A DNA stretch of 64,000 bases from Actinomadura sp. KC06 (GTDB lineage: Bacteria > Actinomycetota > Actinomycetes > Streptosporangiales > Streptosporangiaceae). Positions 36,560-45,101 of the stretch are shown piece after piece. The position numbers and the translations under genes were made by a program. Under the pieces are notes generated by a model. The model ran no database searches and was not told the origin of the DNA. It was given only the letters and a program-made list of their open reading frames with translations. The stretch's first letter is position 1, and each line of letters opens with the position of its first letter. The DNA lies in the NCBI RefSeq assembly GCF_004348735.1, contig NZ_SMKT01000022.1:1-64000 (forward strand), in the 5' to 3' direction.

Positions 36560-36716
36560 GCCACGCCGCCCCGCCGGAGCCCTTACGCGGCGGGCGTTTC
36601 CGAGATCTGCCCCGTCCGGCGTGACCATTGGTACCGAGTCCGGCACGACCTGTGCGTCCCCACATGTACCTCGCAAGTCACAGCAGCAACCCGGATCAGT
36701 GCGTATGGTTCATTCC

Positions 36717-38282
36717 ATGCCTAACAGCGAAGAGCGCGACAATAGCGGCCCCGAGGGGACGGCCGCGGCTCCCCAGGGCGCGGTCTCCGAAGGCGCGGGG
36801 GACGGCGGTGCCGGATCCCCCGGCGCCGGTTCGACGCATGACCCCGGCGCAGGCGGCCCGAGCCCAGGCGGCCCGAGCCCCGGCGGCGGCGAATTCACGG
36901 ACACCGGCCCGGCCGCCGAGGGCGACGTCAAGGTCGCCGGCACCGGCTCCGGCGGATCCACGGAGACGGCGGTCGCCCGGATGGGCGACCCGGTCACCGT
37001 GTGGCCGTGCGCCAATTGCGGACGTCCCGTCCCGCAGCCCATGGGCGCCGTCCGCGCGGTCCGCTACTGCCAGGACAACGACGGCGCCTGCGCCCGCGAG
37101 GCGCGCGACCGCCGCGACCGCGGCCGGGACGCGCCGGGCCTCACCGGGCAGGTCGCCGCCGCCTGGGAGATGGTCGAGCGGCTGGAGAAGGCCGCCGACG
37201 CGCTCGCCGACTCGCTGACGTCCGAGCTGAGCGTCGCCGGGGTGGAGCGGCGCGTCGCCGAGGTGCGGGCCGAGGCGGCCCGCGAGCTCGCCATCGCGCA
37301 GAGCGAGCGCGACGCGTCCCAGCGCAAGGCCGAGGAGGCGTGGCACGAGGCGTCGTCCGCCCGGCAGCGCGCCGAGTCCGCGGAGCAGGACGCCGCCCGC
37401 GCCCGCGAGGAGGCCAAGGTCGCGACCGCCAAGCGCGACGCCGCTCAGCAGGCGTGGGAGGAGGCGCACCAGGTCGCGCAGCAGTCGACGACCGCGAAGC
37501 TGGCCGCCGAGAGCGAGCGCGACCGCGTCGCCGCCCGCGAGACCGAGCTGCTCGCCGCGCTGGAGAGCACCCGCGCCGAGCTGGTCGGCCTGCACTCCAA
37601 GCTCGCCGAGGCGGAGGGCGCCGTCGAGGCGCAGCGCGTCGAGGCCGCCGTCGCCAAGCAGGGCGCCGAGGACCTGCGCAACGCGATGCGCGACACCGAG
37701 GCGCAGCGGCAGCGCGCCATGCAGACCGCCAGCAAGGCCGAGGCCGAGCGCACCGCCGCGATGCGGGCGCAGTCCGAGGCGGAGGCGGAGACCGTCCGCG
37801 CGATCGCCCGCGCCGACGAGGCCGTCAAGGACCGCGACGCCGCGCAGGCCCGTGCCCAGGCCACGGCCACCGACCGCGAAGAGCTCCTCGCCAAGATCAA
37901 CGATCAGACCGTGCAGCTGCGGCAGCTGTCGCAGTCGGTCGCCGAGCAGCAGGCCGCGCTCACCGCCCTCGCCGAGGAGCGCGACGCCGCCCGCGCCGAG
38001 GCCGACCGCGCCCGCCGCCAGATCGACCAGTTCACCCACAACACGCTGTCGTCCAACGTCCCGCCCGGCGGCCGGATGCCCGGCGGCGGCACGCCGGTCC
38101 CGCCCGCGGGCCACGCCGGACCGCCGCCGCCCGCCGGCATGCCGCCCCGGCACCGCTCGGCGCGCCCGTCGCACCCGTTCCGGACGGACCGCCGGGACAG
38201 GGCGCCGGGAACCGTCCGCCGCACGGCGCCAACCCGCACGGCGCCAACCCGCCCGGACCGCCGAACCGCGGCCGGCCGGTGA
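36717..38282 (+). CDS. Zinc-binding long coiled-coil protein, C-terminus possibly frameshifted
   Basis: About 521 residues. Residues 1-95 are Gly/Pro-rich and disordered. A short zinc-binding patch follows (WPCANCGRPVP and YCQDNDGACARE, four cysteines). Residues about 140-440 form an almost unbroken coiled coil with strong Ala/Glu/Arg heptads. The tail is Pro/Gly-rich. The last 45 residues in this frame become arginine-rich and end at 38282. The +1-shifted frame instead continues the Gly/Pro/Asn-rich style and ends NGADREDPLFTGP at 38323, suggesting a one-base loss in the C run near 38143. The function is unknown; it resembles actinobacterial structural or segregation-type coiled-coil proteins. 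The start could be the ATG at 36705. Confidence 0.7.
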   Translation: MPNSEERDNSGPEGTAAAPQGAVSEGAGDGGAGSPGAGSTHDPGAGGPSPGGPSPGGGEFTDTGPAAEGDVKVAGTGSGGSTETAVARMGDPVTVWPCANCGRPVPQPMGAVRAVRYCQDNDGACAREARDRRDRGRDAPGLTGQVAAAWEMVERLEKAADALADSLTSELSVAGVERRVAEVRAEAARELAIAQSERDASQRKAEEAWHEASSARQRAESAEQDAARAREEAKVATAKRDAAQQAWEEAHQVAQQSTTAKLAAESERDRVAARETELLAALESTRAELVGLHSKLAEAEGAVEAQRVEAAVAKQGAEDLRNAMRDTEAQRQRAMQTASKAEAERTAAMRAQSEAEAETVRAIARADEAVKDRDAAQARAQATATDREELLAKINDQTVQLRQLSQSVAEQQAALTALAEERDAARAEADRARRQIDQFTHNTLSSNVPPGGRMPGGGTPVPPAGHAGPPPPAGMPPRHRSARPSHPFRTDRRDRAPGTVRRTAPTRTAPTRPDRRTAAGR

Positions 38283-39612: not shown

Positions 39613-40131
39613 TTACACAGCTCGGGAAGGCTGGGGGCGGCCCGGACGGGTGGTGAAGAAGACGGAGAGGGAGCCCTGGAGGCGGGCGCGGACGGTCTCC
39701 TCGTCGACGGGGCCGTCCGCGGGGACGGGGGTGCGGTCGAGGGCGCGGTCGATGAGGACGTCGACGTTGCGGTCGGCGACGAGCACGGAGCACGTGTCGC
39801 ACCCGTACCACGGGTAGAGCATGTTCAGGACGGCGACGGCGGTGTCGTCGTCCGACAGGTGCGTGGTGTCGAGCTCGACCTCGAACATGTCGGTGTCCTC
39901 GGGGTCGAGCGTGGGGTAGTAGAGCCACCGCGGCCCGGGCGCGCCGCAGAAGTCGCAGGCCTGGTCGTGCTGGGCGGGTTCGCCGACGGCCAGTTCCAGC
40001 TCGTGGTCCCACGGCTCCACGCGCCGGTTGTGGCGGTAGCCGACCCCGTCGAGCGACCCCTCGCGGTTGTGGGTGACGTCGTGCACCTCGCCGCCGCAAC
40101 GGGCGCACATGAAGCCGATGTCCTCCTCCAT
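39613..40131 (-). CDS. Zinc-ribbon protein of unknown function
   Basis: A 172-residue protein with three CxxC pairs (CARCGGEV, CDFCGAPG, CDTCSVL), implying one or two structural zinc sites. The rest is acidic and mostly alpha/beta, with no enzyme signature. The opening EDIGFMCARCGGEVHDV and the mid-part WLYYPTLDPED look like a conserved actinobacterial hypothetical family. It stands alone, about 126 bases downstream of the helicase end of the next operon and on the same strand. Confidence 0.65.
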   Translation of the reverse strand: MEEDIGFMCARCGGEVHDVTHNREGSLDGVGYRHNRRVEPWDHELELAVGEPAQHDQACDFCGAPGPRWLYYPTLDPEDTDMFEVELDTTHLSDDDTAVAVLNMLYPWYGCDTCSVLVADRNVDVLIDRALDRTPVPADGPVDEETVRARLQGSLSVFFTTRPGRPQPSRAV

Positions 40132-40257: not shown

Positions 40258-41613
40258 TCAGTCTCCCGGGACGCGGTGCCGCGCCAGATGCGCGAGGACC
40301 GACTGGTTGGCCTCCCAGCCGTCCGGGAACTTCACCGGCACGCCGAGGTGCACCGGCTCGGCGGACGGGTGCGCGTCCAGCAGCTCGGGGATGCCCGCCC
40401 GCGCCACGACCACGCAGGCGTGCCGGTGGCGGGACGCCAGGACGCACAGCCGCCCCGACTCCAGGTGGAACGCTGTGGCGTCGCGGCGTCCGGACAGCGG
40501 GTGCAGGACGACCGTCGCATCGTATTCACGGCCTTGGAGCCGGTTCGCGGTGTCGACGGTGATGCCCTCGCCGTGCGGGCCGAGCGCGGCGCGGATCGCG
40601 GTGACCTGGTCGCGGTGGGCCGCGCCGATCGCGATGCGCGCGGCGTCCACCGGCCTCGATCCCAGCTCGGAATGCGCGACGGGACCGCGCTGCAGCAGCC
40701 GGACGGCCAGCGCCGCCGTCGCGCGGACGGCCTCGGCGTCGGTGCGCAGCGTGTGCCGCGCGGGCAGCTCGTAGAGCGCCCAGCCGGTGGCGGCGGCCTC
40801 CTCGAGCGCCCGGTCGTAGGTGGTGCCCATGCCGCCCGCCCCGAACTCCAGCCGCCGGTCGCCGGGGCCCGTCCCGGCGCGGAAGCCGGTGAACGGGTAG
40901 AACGCGTCCGACACGACGGGCGCGGCCGACGCGGGCAGCCGCCACGACACCGGCAGCCGGTGGACGGGCAGGTCCGGGTTGTGCGCCAGCAGGACGGACA
41001 CGGCGCTGCGCATCGGGTCCCAGGTCAGGCCCGCCCAGCGCTCGACCTCGACCGTGGAGAACGGGTCGAGCTGGCCCGGGTCGCCGACGAACAGGGCGCG
41101 CTCGAAGCGTCCGGCGATGCGCAGCAGCATGTCGGAGCGCATCTGGTACGCCTCGTCCACGATCGCCCACGGCCAGGACCCCTCGGAGAGCGTCGCCCAC
41201 TTCGCGGCCGTGGCGATGACGACGGTGTGCTCGGCGAGGTCGCCGGCCTTCTGCGCGACCCGCACCGCCGGATGCGCCAGGACCCGCTCGGACGGCGCGT
41301 ACCCCGACGCCGAGAGCCGGCCCAGCGTGATGCCGGGATGCCCGCCCGCGATCCGCTCGATGAGGTCGTCGACCTGCTCGTTCGTCTGCGCGACGATCAT
41401 GAGGCGCTCGCCGGCCTCGGCCAGGTGCGCGGCGGCGCGGACCACCAGCGTCGACTTGCCCGCGCCGGGCGGGGAGTCGACCACCACGCCGCGATGCCCG
41501 CCGCCCAGGTCGGTGAGGACGTCGCCGACGACCTGCGCCGCGGCCTCCGCCGGGTTCGGATCGTCCGCCGGCGCCGGCGCCGGTGCCAGGTGGCGGGTTG
41601 CGTGTTCGGTCAC
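40258..41613 (-). CDS. SF1B helicase of the Upf1/Dna2 type (last gene of the split-Dna2-like operon)
   Basis: A 451-residue superfamily 1 helicase. Walker A is SPPGAGKST (Lys53), Walker B AIVDEAYQM, motif III LFVGDPGQLDPF, motif IV SWRLP, motif V VDTANRLQGREYDATVV, and motif VI VLASRHRHACVVV. These are the Upf1/Dna2 signatures rather than UvrD/RecB ones. The protein begins almost at motif I, so the N-terminal beta-barrel normally found in this family is missing; the upstream gene may supply it. The GTG start overlaps that gene's stop (GTGA). The predicted role is 5'-3' unwinding of DNA or RNA in partnership with the nuclease two genes up. Confidence 0.85.
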   Translation of the reverse strand: MTEHATRHLAPAPAPADDPNPAEAAAQVVGDVLTDLGGGHRGVVVDSPPGAGKSTLVVRAAAHLAEAGERLMIVAQTNEQVDDLIERIAGGHPGITLGRLSASGYAPSERVLAHPAVRVAQKAGDLAEHTVVIATAAKWATLSEGSWPWAIVDEAYQMRSDMLLRIAGRFERALFVGDPGQLDPFSTVEVERWAGLTWDPMRSAVSVLLAHNPDLPVHRLPVSWRLPASAAPVVSDAFYPFTGFRAGTGPGDRRLEFGAGGMGTTYDRALEEAAATGWALYELPARHTLRTDAEAVRATAALAVRLLQRGPVAHSELGSRPVDAARIAIGAAHRDQVTAIRAALGPHGEGITVDTANRLQGREYDATVVLHPLSGRRDATAFHLESGRLCVLASRHRHACVVVARAGIPELLDAHPSAEPVHLGVPVKFPDGWEANQSVLAHLARHRVPGD

Positions 41614-43082
41614 GACCAGTCCTCCTTGGCGTCCTCGTTGGCCGGCACGTACTCCTCGGGCGGTCCGCCGTGCGTCCACGGCGTGGCCTCGCGGTCGGGG
41701 AACTTCGCCGCGCCGAACGAGCCGTCCGTGAGGGAGGTGAAGCACACCCGGTCGCCGACCTGCGGGACGGCGCCCGGCTCGGGCGTGAGCTTGCGGCCCA
41801 TCCCGCCCGTCAGTTCCAGCAGCACCGTGCCGCCGTCGATCTCCATGATCTTTCCCTTGAGCGCCGGACGCGCCGCGTTGCACACGGTCGTCCCGGCGTC
41901 GAGGCGCACCGGGTCCTGCGTGCTGACGCGCAGATGCGGGCGGAGCTTGGGGCGCTTGCCCGTCTCGTCCAGGCGGGTCGGGTCGCAGTCGGCGACGACG
42001 CCGCCGAACGCCTGGCCCGCCAGCCGGTGCTCGGCCATGACCAGCGGATCGTCGAAGGCGCGCTGCGCGTCGTAGGCGTCCTGGGCGCGTTCGAGGTCGT
42101 GCAGCCGCCGCGCCGCCCGGACGGGCGGGTCGCGGCGCGCCTGCGGATACGCCTCGCCGAACGTCTGGTGGTAGTAGGTGAAGGCGTCACGGTCGCGCTC
42201 CCAGCGCCCCGGCACGCTCGCGCCTTCCGGCAGGGCGCGCAGGAGTTCGACGGCCCGCCACATCAGGTCCCAGGTCGGGGCAAGCTGGCCGGACAGGGCG
42301 GTGCGGAGCCGCTCCTCGGCGGGGGAGCCGGGGCCTGACCGGTCGTAGGCGGCGACCGCCGGGGCGAGGACCTCGTTGTCGAACGTCGGGTCGGTCGCAG
42401 GGCCCGCCGGCGGGCAGATCACCGGGTCTTCGGCGCGGGCCGCGGCGGCGGGGCCGTCCAGGCCGTCCGGCGGGTCGATCCAGCCCATCAGGGCGGCGAG
42501 GTTGCCGTCTTCCAGGGAACTCTGGCCCGTCGCCCAGTGCAGCCTCAGCATCTCCGTCATGGCGCCCAGCAGCGACGACCCGGGATGGTCGTGCCGGTCG
42601 GCGAACCACGTCAGCCACCGTCCGAGCACCGGGACCGCCGGGTCCACCGCGTACGGGCCCTCGGTGCTGCGGAACCGCGTCGAGCGTCCCATCAGCCGCA
42701 GGAACGCGACGCCGCCCCGGTTCGGGACGAGCAACTGCGGCGCGTTCCCGTACCGGATGCGTTCCTCGCCGTCCTTGGCGGGCGGTAGCTCCTCTGCCGC
42801 GCCGTGGCTCGTCTCGATGTGGTTCAGGACGAGCCTGGCCAGGTCGGCGGCGAACGCGAACCGCAGGTCGCGGTTGCGCGGCTGCGGCACGACCAGCAGC
42901 GACGGGTCGTCCGGCCTGCTCCCGGCCATGACCGCCAGCGGCGCCGCGGCTTCCCCGGCGAGCTTCAGCGGGACGAGCACCAGCGGCGCGTCCGACACAT
43001 GGCAGTGCCGCACCGTCGCGAGCGGCCGCGCGACCCCGGCGGCCGTCGCCTCCAGCCGGGCGAGCGAAGTCAGCGCGCTCAT
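41610..43082 (-). CDS. Unknown protein of the split-Dna2-like operon, with C-terminal barrel-like region
   Basis: A 490-residue protein, not assignable to a named family. Most of it is helical with Trp/Arg-rich patches (LGRWLTWFADRHDHPGSSLLGAMTEMLRLHW). Residues about 400-465 contain beta strands around TTVCNAARPALKGKIMEIDGG, VLLELTGG and VGDRVCFTSL. They resemble the 1B beta-barrel that precedes the helicase core in Upf1 and Dna2 (inference). The next gene encodes such a core lacking the barrel. It starts 7 bases after the nuclease gene and overlaps the helicase gene by four bases. It may bridge nuclease and helicase in one complex. Confidence 0.7.
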   Translation of the reverse strand: MSALTSLARLEATAAGVARPLATVRHCHVSDAPLVLVPLKLAGEAAAPLAVMAGSRPDDPSLLVVPQPRNRDLRFAFAADLARLVLNHIETSHGAAEELPPAKDGEERIRYGNAPQLLVPNRGGVAFLRLMGRSTRFRSTEGPYAVDPAVPVLGRWLTWFADRHDHPGSSLLGAMTEMLRLHWATGQSSLEDGNLAALMGWIDPPDGLDGPAAAARAEDPVICPPAGPATDPTFDNEVLAPAVAAYDRSGPGSPAEERLRTALSGQLAPTWDLMWRAVELLRALPEGASVPGRWERDRDAFTYYHQTFGEAYPQARRDPPVRAARRLHDLERAQDAYDAQRAFDDPLVMAEHRLAGQAFGGVVADCDPTRLDETGKRPKLRPHLRVSTQDPVRLDAGTTVCNAARPALKGKIMEIDGGTVLLELTGGMGRKLTPEPGAVPQVGDRVCFTSLTDGSFGAAKFPDREATPWTHGGPPEEYVPANEDAKEDWS

Positions 43083-43089
43083 CGGCCGA

Positions 43090-44220
43090 TCACGCGACCC
43101 CGTGCAGAGCGCCGTGCAGAGCGCCGTGCGCGCCTTCGTGCAGGGCCTCGGCGCGCAGGCGGGCCGCCGCGCGGAGCTGCTCGGCCGTCTCCGCCAGGTC
43201 GTCGGACGGCGTCAGCGACCCGTCCGCCAGCGCGAGCGCCGTGCCGATCGTGTCGACCCCGCCGAGATCGTCGCGGACGGACCGGCCGAGCGCCCCCGTC
43301 TCGCCGCACGCCCGCGCCTCGTCCCGGCAGAACAGCGCCATCTCGCAGCCCGCCATGCACTCGGGCGCGTACCGCGCGTCCACGGCCCGGACGGACGCGG
43401 CGAGCGCCTCCCCGGGCTCGAACGTCAGATCGCCGGGCAGCTCCGCCAGGATCGCGTCGACGCGGGTGAGGCGTGCGAGCTGCCGTTCCAGGACGGCGAG
43501 CTGCGGCCGCACGTCCAGCGGCGTCGCGGACGGACGGTTGGAGAAGTTCTCCGGGCAGACGAGGAACACGTCGTGCGAGACGCGTCCCGGATCGTGCCCC
43601 AGCTCGGTCACGAGGCGGCGCAGCGCCAGCACGTACACGGCCGACTGGCGCGCCGCCGCGGCGACCTGCTCCGGCTCGGCCTGCCCGTCCACGACGGCGA
43701 ACGACTTGATCTCGATGACGTGCAACCGGCCCGCGAGCTGGAACGCGATGACGTCCGGCTCCAGGTAGGCGGGGCGCCCGGCGATCTCCAGCCGCAGCAG
43801 CGGATGGTCGAACAGCGTGCCCTCGCCGGTCTCCAGCGCGCGGGCGAGGAGCCGGCGGGTGCGCGAATGCCGCAGCTCGCGGCCCTCGTTCCCGGCGACC
43901 ACCGCCAGGTCGTCGTAGGCGACCTCCGGGACGTCGAGGCCGAGCCGGTCGCGCAGCAGCGTGAGCAGCTCCGCGCAGCCGTCCGCCTTCACCTGCGCCT
44001 CGAACGCGTTCCCGCGCGTGATCGCGAACTGCGACTGCCCGAACGGCGCGGGAAAGCCCAGCTCCCGCGCCACGGCGTCCTTGTCGACGCCGGCCGCGTC
44101 CAGCACGCCGCGGCGGGCGCAGCCGGGGTTGGACGTCAGCGCGGCGATCGTGCGGGCGTCGTGGTTGCGCGGTGGCGCACCGCCGCGCAACCGGTCCAGA
44201 TCCGGCGCGGTATCGGTCAT
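43090..44220 (-). CDS. PD-(D/E)XK nuclease with predicted 4Fe-4S cluster (Cas4/AddB/Dna2 type)
   Basis: A 376-residue nuclease. The active site shows RGNAFEAQV (helical entry motif), then Asp in YLEPDVIAF and Glu-x-Lys in HVIEIKSF. Four cysteines match the iron-sulfur staple of Cas4, AddB and Dna2: Cys34 in SNPGCARRGVL before the active site, and Cys288, Cys292, Cys298 after it (C-x3-C-x5-C). It should cut single-stranded DNA ends. Its ATG overlaps the stop of the upstream gene (ATGA). No Cas genes or CRISPR repeats are nearby, so Cas4 function is unlikely. The acidic/His-rich tail repeats HGALHGALHG. Confidence 0.85.
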   Translation of the reverse strand: MTDTAPDLDRLRGGAPPRNHDARTIAALTSNPGCARRGVLDAAGVDKDAVARELGFPAPFGQSQFAITRGNAFEAQVKADGCAELLTLLRDRLGLDVPEVAYDDLAVVAGNEGRELRHSRTRRLLARALETGEGTLFDHPLLRLEIAGRPAYLEPDVIAFQLAGRLHVIEIKSFAVVDGQAEPEQVAAAARQSAVYVLALRRLVTELGHDPGRVSHDVFLVCPENFSNRPSATPLDVRPQLAVLERQLARLTRVDAILAELPGDLTFEPGEALAASVRAVDARYAPECMAGCEMALFCRDEARACGETGALGRSVRDDLGGVDTIGTALALADGSLTPSDDLAETAEQLRAAARLRAEALHEGAHGALHGALHGVA

Positions 44221-45101
44221 CGGTCGGTCTCTCCACTGATCGCGGGGTTGATGGCAGAGCTGGTGGCGGAGCGCTGTCCGGGGCGTTGCGCTGGGCGCCC
44301 TCCGGAGCCCCGCACGGCCCGGAGCCGGCTGCCGAAGAGCCGTTCCGCGTCGTCGAGCCGGTCCCGGGCGCGGCGCGCGGCGGACGCGCGCCGCCGCCGG
44401 TCGGGCTCCCGGTGCACGTCCAGCTCGGCCCGGGCGGCCTCGGCGAGCGCGGCCGGATCGGCCGTACCGACCGTACCGGTCGCGGCACCGGGAATGGTGG
44501 ACGCGAAACGCCACAGGAGCCTCTGCACCTCGGGGGACGGCGGCGTCCCGCGTCCGGCGGCGTGCTCGGCGAGCCGGGCGGCGGCGGTCAGGAAGTCGGT
44601 ACGCGGACTCAGCGGGCCGACGATCCGCTGCTCCAGCGGCCACGTGCTCACGGTGAGCAGGCCGCGGGCGGGTGCGAGCAGGTCGGCGGTCAGCGCGGCG
44701 CAAAGATAGTAGGGACGTGCGTAAGGGGAGGTGCGGAAAGAACGTTCCTCGTCGCGCCGCAGGCTCGTCAACCGGGTGGACGGGATCTCGCCGGGGAAGA
44801 ACGCCGCGTAGACCGCCCCGATCAGCTTCGGCGCGGCGGGCGCGCCGAGCAGGGTCAGCGCCTGGTGTACCTGCTCGCGGACCGGCAGCAGCCCGCGCCC
44901 CGCGTCACCGCCGTCGCCGGTTCCGGGGTCGTCGCCGAGGACGGCGTCGTCCCATGCCCGCTCCGCCTCCCGCAGCTCGGCGCGCAGCTCGCGGGCCGTC
45001 CGCCGGTCGCCCGCCGCCACGGCCCGCCGGACGGCGGCGCGCAGCAGGGTGATGCGCGCTTCCAGCTCGTCGGGGGTCGCGGCGCCGGGGGGCCTGGACA
45101 T
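44217..45101 (-). CDS. Unknown first protein of the split-Dna2-like operon
   Basis: A 294-residue protein of no named family. Residues about 10-55 are charged and helical (ARITLLRAAVRRAV...AELREAERAWDDAV). Residues about 75-165 (REQVHQALTLLGAPAAPKLIGAVYAAFF, SLRRDEERSF, RPYYLCAALTADLLAPARGLL) look like a winged-helix unit, which is inference. The C-terminal 60 residues are very basic (RRRRASAARRARDRLDDAERLFGSRLRAVR). It could be the DNA-binding or regulatory part of the operon. The stop overlaps the nuclease start. A possible -10 lies seven bases before its ATG. Confidence 0.7.
   Translation of the reverse strand: MSRPPGAATPDELEARITLLRAAVRRAVAAGDRRTARELRAELREAERAWDDAVLGDDPGTGDGGDAGRGLLPVREQVHQALTLLGAPAAPKLIGAVYAAFFPGEIPSTRLTSLRRDEERSFRTSPYARPYYLCAALTADLLAPARGLLTVSTWPLEQRIVGPLSPRTDFLTAAARLAEHAAGRGTPPSPEVQRLLWRFASTIPGAATGTVGTADPAALAEAARAELDVHREPDRRRRASAARRARDRLDDAERLFGSRLRAVRGSGGRPAQRPGQRSATSSAINPAISGETDR

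Follow-up and report, generated by a model that had tools for sequence, protein, structure and literature searches.

Can a Dna2-like nuclease-helicase be made up of separate chains? The question is raised by four genes, g1 to g4, on the minus strand of a 64,000-nucleotide stretch of Actinomadura sp. KC06 DNA (contig NZ_SMKT01000022.1, positions 1 to 64,000; the window in what follows). An earlier note on this DNA had described four joined minus-strand genes between positions 45101 and 40258, and the open reading frames (ORFs) and junctions were found as described: in the order g1 to g4 the genes are connected by an ATGA overlap, a 7-base gap and a GTGA overlap. The genes and their predicted products are the following.

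44220-45101, minus strand: g1, ATG start, 294 amino acids (aa); probable N-terminal coiled coil and a conserved domain without assigned function; optional member
43090-44220, minus strand: g2, 376 aa; predicted PD-(D/E)XK nuclease with Cys34, Cys288, Cys292 and Cys298 in an iron-staple pattern
41610-43082, minus strand: g3, 490 aa; N-terminal DEDD-exonuclease-like domain, followed at about residues 318-468 by a predicted stalk of helices and a beta barrel of the 1B type
40258-41613, minus strand: g4, GTG start, 451 aa; predicted superfamily 1B (SF1B) motor core of the Upf1/IGHMBP2/Dna2 type, starting shortly before motif I

We consider it fairly probable that g2, g3 and g4 form one three-chain Dna2-like nuclease-helicase for DNA ends or flaps, with a core copy that serves repair and accessory copies that work in defence. 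The three genes are read as such an enzyme because the predicted fold of g2 is near that of Cas4, and the predicted fold of g3 closes with a stalk and 1B barrel of IGHMBP2/Dna2-type helicases, both of them missing from g4. What is new here is the split (three-chain) version of the Dna2/Bad-type enzyme; single-chain bacterial forms were already known. The genes g1-g4 are a conserved unit for which no name or description was found, and no publication on this four-gene operon was present among the matches listed in the open-access literature. No Pfam or NCBIfam family was matched by g1, g2 or g3. The PADLOC v2 component models gave no match for g1 and g3, one match at E 0.08 for g2, and generic helicase similarity only for g4.

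The g2 nuclease

The motifs of g2 (LEPD...EIK and QxxxY; active-site residues E154, D156, E170, K172, Q192 and Y196 in the window copy) indicate a PD-(D/E)XK core with the RecB-type QxxxY. In Pfam, PDDEXK_1 was matched weakly by 10 of 39 g2 members. Conservation was counted in 216 g2 records, which comprise the window copy and pairs of a short and a long locus from one genome, duplicates included, and hence are not independent. The cysteine quartet, one residue before and three after the nuclease core, was kept in all 216 records (and in 39/39 sequences of a smaller alignment), and D156, E170 and K172 were all kept in 198.

The AlphaFold2 (AF2) model of g2 had a mean predicted local distance difference test score (pLDDT) of 92.5. 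In the VIA comparison the top match was Cas4 (7mi4, Z 10.6, 202 residues, root-mean-square deviation (rmsd) 4.9). Other matches were AddAB (Z 8.8), EXO5 (Z 8.3) and Dna2 (Z 6.9-7.3), with RecBCD and AdnAB also within 6.6-8.8; DinG (Z 9.4) and phage exonucleases (Z 9.0) rank high among the matches too. Foldseek returned 16 matches below 0.001, which were RecB-type exonucleases (MGME1, RecE, SSO0001 and others), the Cas4-family ACE1, and AdnA. On this model g2 has the Cas4/AddB/Dna2 nuclease fold, and the earlier description of a PD-(D/E)XK nuclease with cysteines of the iron-sulphur (Fe-S) type is borne out by the invariant quartet and the predicted structure. A 4Fe-4S cluster is presumably bound by g2. 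Matches of g2 to designed repeat proteins in a PDB profile search look like composition noise and were set aside.

The g4 motor and the g3 barrel

The g4 protein carries PPGAGKST (from residue 48), GDPGQLDPF and VDTANRLQGREYD, and it matched Pfam AAA_11 and AAA_12 above cut-off. Its closest solved relatives in a PDB profile search were IGHMBP2 (E 6e-12) and DNA2 (E 9e-11). The Walker lysine and the DE box were kept in 214/214 aligned g4 records, with one gap. By its sequence g4 is thus placed in the SF1B Upf1/IGHMBP2/Dna2 clade, and the earlier view of a motor of this type without a 1B insert holds, as g4 is near IGHMBP2 and DNA2 and starts shortly before motif I.

A barrel was found in the predicted structure of the neighbouring protein. 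The AF2 model of g3 (pLDDT 90.5, predicted template modelling score 0.88) aligned in VIA to the IGHMBP2 stalk and barrel over residues 318-468 (4b3f, Z 9.5, 127 residues, rmsd 4.4) and to the IGHMBP2 barrel over residues 352-452 (4b3g, Z 9.4, 82 residues, rmsd 2.3); in this list IGHMBP2 alone stands above unrelated barrels. According to the models, the stalk and 1B barrel that precede motif I would be supplied in trans by g3.

The same comparison matched residues 31-338 to B-family polymerase exonuclease domains (Z 9.5-9.6) and RNase T (Z 8.0), which weakly suggests that the N-terminus of g3 is related to DEDD exonucleases. No sequence match to the RNase H-like PF13482 was obtained for it; the folds matched are those of DEDD exonucleases (Z 8.0-9.6), with acids missing at residues 34-41. 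DEDD exonucleases carry a DxE on the first strand. Since no acid is present at residues 34-41 in 47/47 sequences, so that the DxE is missing there, the domain is probably inactive. The earlier note had guessed a 1B barrel in g3, which the model and VIA provide; its picture of g3 as a barrel protein only has to be given up, as the exonuclease-like domain precedes the barrel.

Conservation and distribution of the genes

We surveyed 152 loci, mostly from Actinomadura and with some genomes present twice; 80 of them are the best 80 of 392 g3 relatives. The closest named g3 matches were from Actinomadura, at 94 and 93% identity, in a listing from which the window's own record may be missing. Gene order was scored on the same strand within 4.5 kb of g3. 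Upstream of g3, g2 was found in 151/151 loci with room; downstream, g4 was found in 145/150 and, where it was not adjacent, it persisted 36-49 kb away in 2/2 genomes tested. The commonest junction was a 4-base overlap (g1-g2 69/104, g2-g3 52/134, g3-g4 45/134, with starts picked by script). No fusion was seen, because no ORF in the 152 loci and 20 further ones was matched by two of the four models.

The g3 gene was present in 65/65 genomes of the genus of the window (in one of them in two pieces) and in 141 of 150 genomes of g56, a genus which we take to be Streptomyces; it was found in 69/150 genomes of the order and 70/394 of the class, and g2 in 16/396 of the phylum. Two of these 16, outside the class (L219 and L220), have the order g2-g3-g4, with g1 not detected. 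Seven of the nine Streptomyces-type genomes without g3 also lack g2 and g4 orthologues (one is 82% complete; two show weak helicase matches). In the other two (G1005 and G1014) g3 may have been lost to assembly, because pieces of g2 or g4 sit near contig ends. The conserved order and the joint absence of g2, g3 and g4 argue against a chance operon, which was rejected. A phage origin was also rejected: no g3 relatives were found in INPHARED, peptide patterns found no relatives of g2 or g3 in IMG/VR, and a fold search of g3 in BFVD gave nothing below 0.001.

The expectation that all four genes stay together was confirmed for g2-g3-g4 and not for g1, which was upstream in 117/147 loci with room; contrary to the earlier picture, g1 is therefore no fixed subunit of the complex. 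It was found in genomes G000, G264 and G463. Searches that included controls did not find it in three Streptomyces-type genomes whose sole copy is a core one (G166, G203, G309), nor in the nine genomes without g3; a search of 14 genomes made without a positive control found none either, and three of these were re-run with controls. Members of the g1 family (34 aligned) gave weak Pfam matches, mostly of coiled-coil type. An impression from the alignment that g1 is a winged-helix protein was dropped, as the members gave noise of coiled-coil type in Pfam and just one weak match to a winged helix (E 0.067).

A tree was made from concatenated g2-g3-g4 of 81 loci, together with three single-gene trees. 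Single clades were formed by the Streptomyces-type core copies (21/21), the copies linked to pPIWI-RE (5/5) and those of Actinomadura (7/7), each of them also in the three single-gene trees. Copies linked to sbcCD were divided: 13 of the 14 fall into a common group (group support was not read) and L223 is distant, so that the link is either old or arose twice. The group of 13 also includes L039 and L044, both without an sbcCD match.

Comparison with known nuclease-helicases

The single-chain bacterial Dna2-like enzyme Bad, from Geobacillus, consists of an Fe-S nuclease, a central domain of unassigned function and an SF1B motor, according to the accessible part of its description, where a second Bad class is mentioned in mycobacteria (PMC7430649). 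In Bad as in the operon, an iron-staple RecB-family nuclease comes first, an additional domain follows and an SF1B motor comes last. Bad differs, as far as that text goes, in being one chain, a monomer, rare and sporadic, and encoded beside a type III-like methyltransferase gene (PMC7430649), whereas the operon comprises three or four chains and is core in two surveyed genera. The union of nuclease and helicase in one polypeptide, a trait of Dna2 and Bad, is not found in the window, where the two are separate ORFs.

Eukaryotic Dna2 likewise has the order Fe-S nuclease, 1B barrel, SF1B motor and gave weak fold matches to g2 and g3, but it is a single chain. To our knowledge it has no exonuclease-like domain such as that of g3. 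The earlier note had contrasted the operon with eukaryotic Dna2 as one chain; the match in order stands, but single-chain Dna2-like enzymes are also bacterial, namely Bad and proteins of the TM0106 type.

Eight single chains of the TM0106 type, or Bad class II (L248-L255, about 1100-1250 aa), were found in family f6, which we take to be Mycobacteriaceae. Each of the two that were scanned had a match to TIGR03491 and a partial one to the IGHMBP2 helicase family, separated by RNase_H_2. In these chains, too, a nuclease and an RNase H-like domain precede an SF1B motor, and the motor of the eight chains is homologous to g4 over its length (hhalign Prob 99.4). They differ from the operon in being single chains to which g2 and g3 show no significant sequence match; the g1 profile gave no match either. 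In a domain-wise comparison g2 (P 0.008) and the C-terminal part of g3 (P 0.0012) paired best with their expected counterparts, but the N-terminal part of g3 did not (P 0.32). Domains of the same kinds are met with fused in the TM0106 type and split in g2-g4. Fused nuclease-RNase H-SF1B proteins of the TM0106 type are also encoded on plasmids from many phyla; of these 96 records, 38 are predicted to be conjugative or mobilizable. A separate TIGR03491/RNase_H_2 gene lies directly after g4 in one of the loci outside the class (L219:4862-6553), as if the single-chain exonuclease were a further subunit.

AdnAB and AddAB resemble the operon in combining a nuclease with an SF1 motor for end resection. 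Their motors are of the UvrD type and fused to nuclease domains. Such a superfamily 1A motor fused to a nuclease was not found here, g4 being separate and of the SF1B type, and the difference from AdnAB noted earlier is upheld. Going by the title of one study, adnAB is reportedly essential in Streptomyces. The available portion of another names AdnAB the main helicase-nuclease of Streptomyces (PMC5869714). Cas4 and other pfam12705 nucleases share the fold and Cys pattern of g2, Cas4 being the best structural match; the helicase links given for them in the part of the source at hand are UvrD-like SF1 and YprA-like SF2, not SF1B (PMC5704561).

Core and accessory copies

Ten Streptomyces-type genomes with more than one match were taken as pairs of a core and an extra copy (G1031 has three matches); they were picked from a listing in which other genomes had several matches as well. 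Neighbouring genes were named from PADLOC models, Pfam, record annotation and tblastn with those proteins, and neighbour counts are raw. The core copies lacked g1 in 10/10 cases and lay in a common neighbourhood, with core34, core48 and core38 in 10/10 and a Prim-Pol-like gene (PF09250) in 9/10; a tRNA-Lys (CTT) gene was close by in 8/8 core loci scanned. In the core arrangement (L100, L103, L104, L274-L283) the operon is followed by the small gene core38 and, in 9/10 pairs, by the Prim-Pol-like gene.

All ten extra copies carried g1. Both sbcC and sbcD adjoined six of them (L265, L266, L268, L269, L270 and L273), and an sbcD match alone adjoined L267. Wadjet matches followed the sbc-linked copies L265 and L267 (type 2) and L268 (type 1). 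Genes for pPIWI-RE/Ppr adjoined three (L264, L271 and L272), the last two of which also had HmaA matches. In total, six of the ten lay next to Wadjet or pPIWI-RE/Ppr genes. Over 7-10 kb the extra copy L265 shared 91-94% identity with plasmids from named Streptomyces, and no long DNA match among plasmids was obtained for the core loci L100 and L103. Three accessory copies (L106, L266 and L273) lie 7-22 kb from the end of a contig of 8-9 Mb, possibly close to chromosome ends.

In the survey of 152 loci, of which 132 span 14 kb or more, the module was adjoined by sbcC/sbcD matches in seven: L032 (short matches only), L033, L106, L108, L110, L118 and L223. Wadjet matches were present in five of these (L032, L033, L106, L118 and L223). 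Islands with pPIWI-RE/Ppr were found at L111 and L113, the former with HmaA/HmaB. Other islands contained a type III restriction-modification system and a UvrD-type helicase (L220), a Mokosh-like helicase (L045) or a UvrD-nuclease (L042). Island copies need not be extra copies, because L118, L223 and L220 are the sole copies found in their genomes. The defence-island context that the earlier note had proposed to look for was not seen among six window neighbours of the operon and was seen in other genomes, at extra copies, plasmid copies and these sole copies.

Proposed function

In the mechanism that we propose, g4 would be an ATP-driven SF1B motor that pulls single-stranded DNA (ssDNA). The barrel and stalk of g3, on a scaffold resembling a dead exonuclease, would hold and split the duplex in trans for g4, and g2, as an Fe-S-stapled nuclease, would cut the strand fed by the motor. 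Substrates may be free ends, 5' flaps or ssDNA junctions, ends and flaps being suggested by analogy with Dna2 and with Bad as presented in the accessible text (PMC7430649). A 5'-3' polarity is presumed. The earlier idea of a Dna2 rebuilt from subunits is sustained by the order nuclease-barrel-motor and by genes that are conserved and mostly lost together; the physical g2-g3-g4 complex itself we infer.

Most likely, the core copy in Actinomadura and Streptomyces-type genomes serves DNA repair or the clean-up of replication intermediates, and the accessory copies, which carry g1 and often lie beside SbcCD, break down invading DNA at its ends, for instance following cleavage by Wadjet. SbcCD are homologues of Mre11-Rad50. 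In accessory copies SbcCD may perhaps open blocked ends first, and g1 may, as a guess, load the complex. The g2 nuclease is probably dead in the pPIWI-RE-linked loci, because all five have E170L and K172R; at these loci the complex may unwind DNA only and leave the cutting to a neighbouring nuclease. The g2 copies concerned (L111, the same place as L092; L113, the same place as L094; L264, L271 and L272) keep the four cysteines, and the motor residues checked are intact. A wider proposal, possible but doubtful in our estimate, is that SbcCD, encoded back to back with the three-chain Dna2 and g1 as loader, represent an actinomycete counterpart, in separate parts, of eukaryotic end resection: a mobile six-gene module would finish off DNA that Wadjet or another defence nuclease has opened, and the three-gene form without g1 would be a core repair machine of Streptomyces beside the Prim-Pol-like gene.

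Several results weigh against the three-chain enzyme or its division into repair and defence copies. Of the g2 records, 18/216 were changed at D156, E170 or K172, the double change in the pPIWI-RE-linked loci has been noted, and g4 was not adjacent in 5/150 loci. For g3, the VIA scores of Dna2 (Z 7.4-7.9, rmsd 4.3-7.2), Senataxin (7.5) and Sen1 (7.3) were not above those of unrelated barrels (up to 7.9), and Foldseek gave nothing below 0.001 (best E 0.029, Senataxin third). The hhalign comparison with the TM0106-type single chain was not significant for g3 (Prob 2.8) or g2 (Prob 0.8). As the g2 and g3 profiles do not match the single chains significantly, sequence comparison does not establish descent of g2-g3-g4 from one split gene of that type. 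Finally, four extra copies (L266, L269, L270 and L273) have sbcCD and yielded no defence gene from the families searched for; PADLOC was not run on the rest of their neighbours.

The last point bears equally on the explanation that the operon is a defence system everywhere, the window included, which degrades incoming phage or plasmid DNA and owes its near-core status to long retention. The six paired extra copies beside Wadjet or pPIWI-RE/Ppr genes and several other copies inside islands would fit it, but the four with sbcCD alone among the families sought do not, and neither do core loci in fixed neighbourhoods with retention of 65/65 and 141/150, a monophyletic Streptomyces-type core clade, or six window neighbours without a meaningful PADLOC match. 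We regard defence by all copies as rather unlikely, and the earlier defence reading of the window operon, which is present in every genome of its genus, is not retained.

We judge it very improbable that the genes encode co-expressed but separate enzymes, in which case a Cas4-like nuclease working alone would stand beside a motor like Upf1 and a protein with a structural role, perhaps with RNA:DNA hybrids in place of DNA ends as substrate. Upf1-like motors often act on RNA, and g4 was unlinked in two genomes tested, both of which speak for such a division of labour. So does the prediction, in the part of the source available, that the neighbouring pPIWI-RE systems act on R-loops (PMC3702460). 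It is opposed by the barrel that is absent from g4 and present in the g3 model, and by the conserved order and joint absence of the genes.

If the three-chain Dna2-like enzyme is accepted, a nearly universal uncharacterised nuclease-helicase exists beside AdnAB in two large genera of soil bacteria, of which one is probably Streptomyces, and another subunit is able to provide an SF1B motor with its 1B barrel. A Dna2-like enzyme would then be tied to Mre11-Rad50 homologues and Wadjet in bacteria, and it would be a candidate barrier to plasmid entry.

Neighbouring genes in the window

The operon is flanked in the window by metabolic or unassigned genes; by Pfam they include a 3-hydroxyisobutyrate-dehydrogenase-like gene, APH and an F420-dependent quinone reductase. 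Six window neighbours of the operon gave no meaningful PADLOC match, and no Cas4 gene is among them. Two further genes belong to families that recur near the operon.

39613-40131, minus strand: small Cys-rich protein after g4
36621-38282, plus strand: probable coiled-coil protein; CxxC motif in the N-terminal region

The second protein matched no Pfam family below E 0.1. Among 135 clustered loci, the family of the first was found downstream of the operon in 45 and that of the second near the operon in 51.

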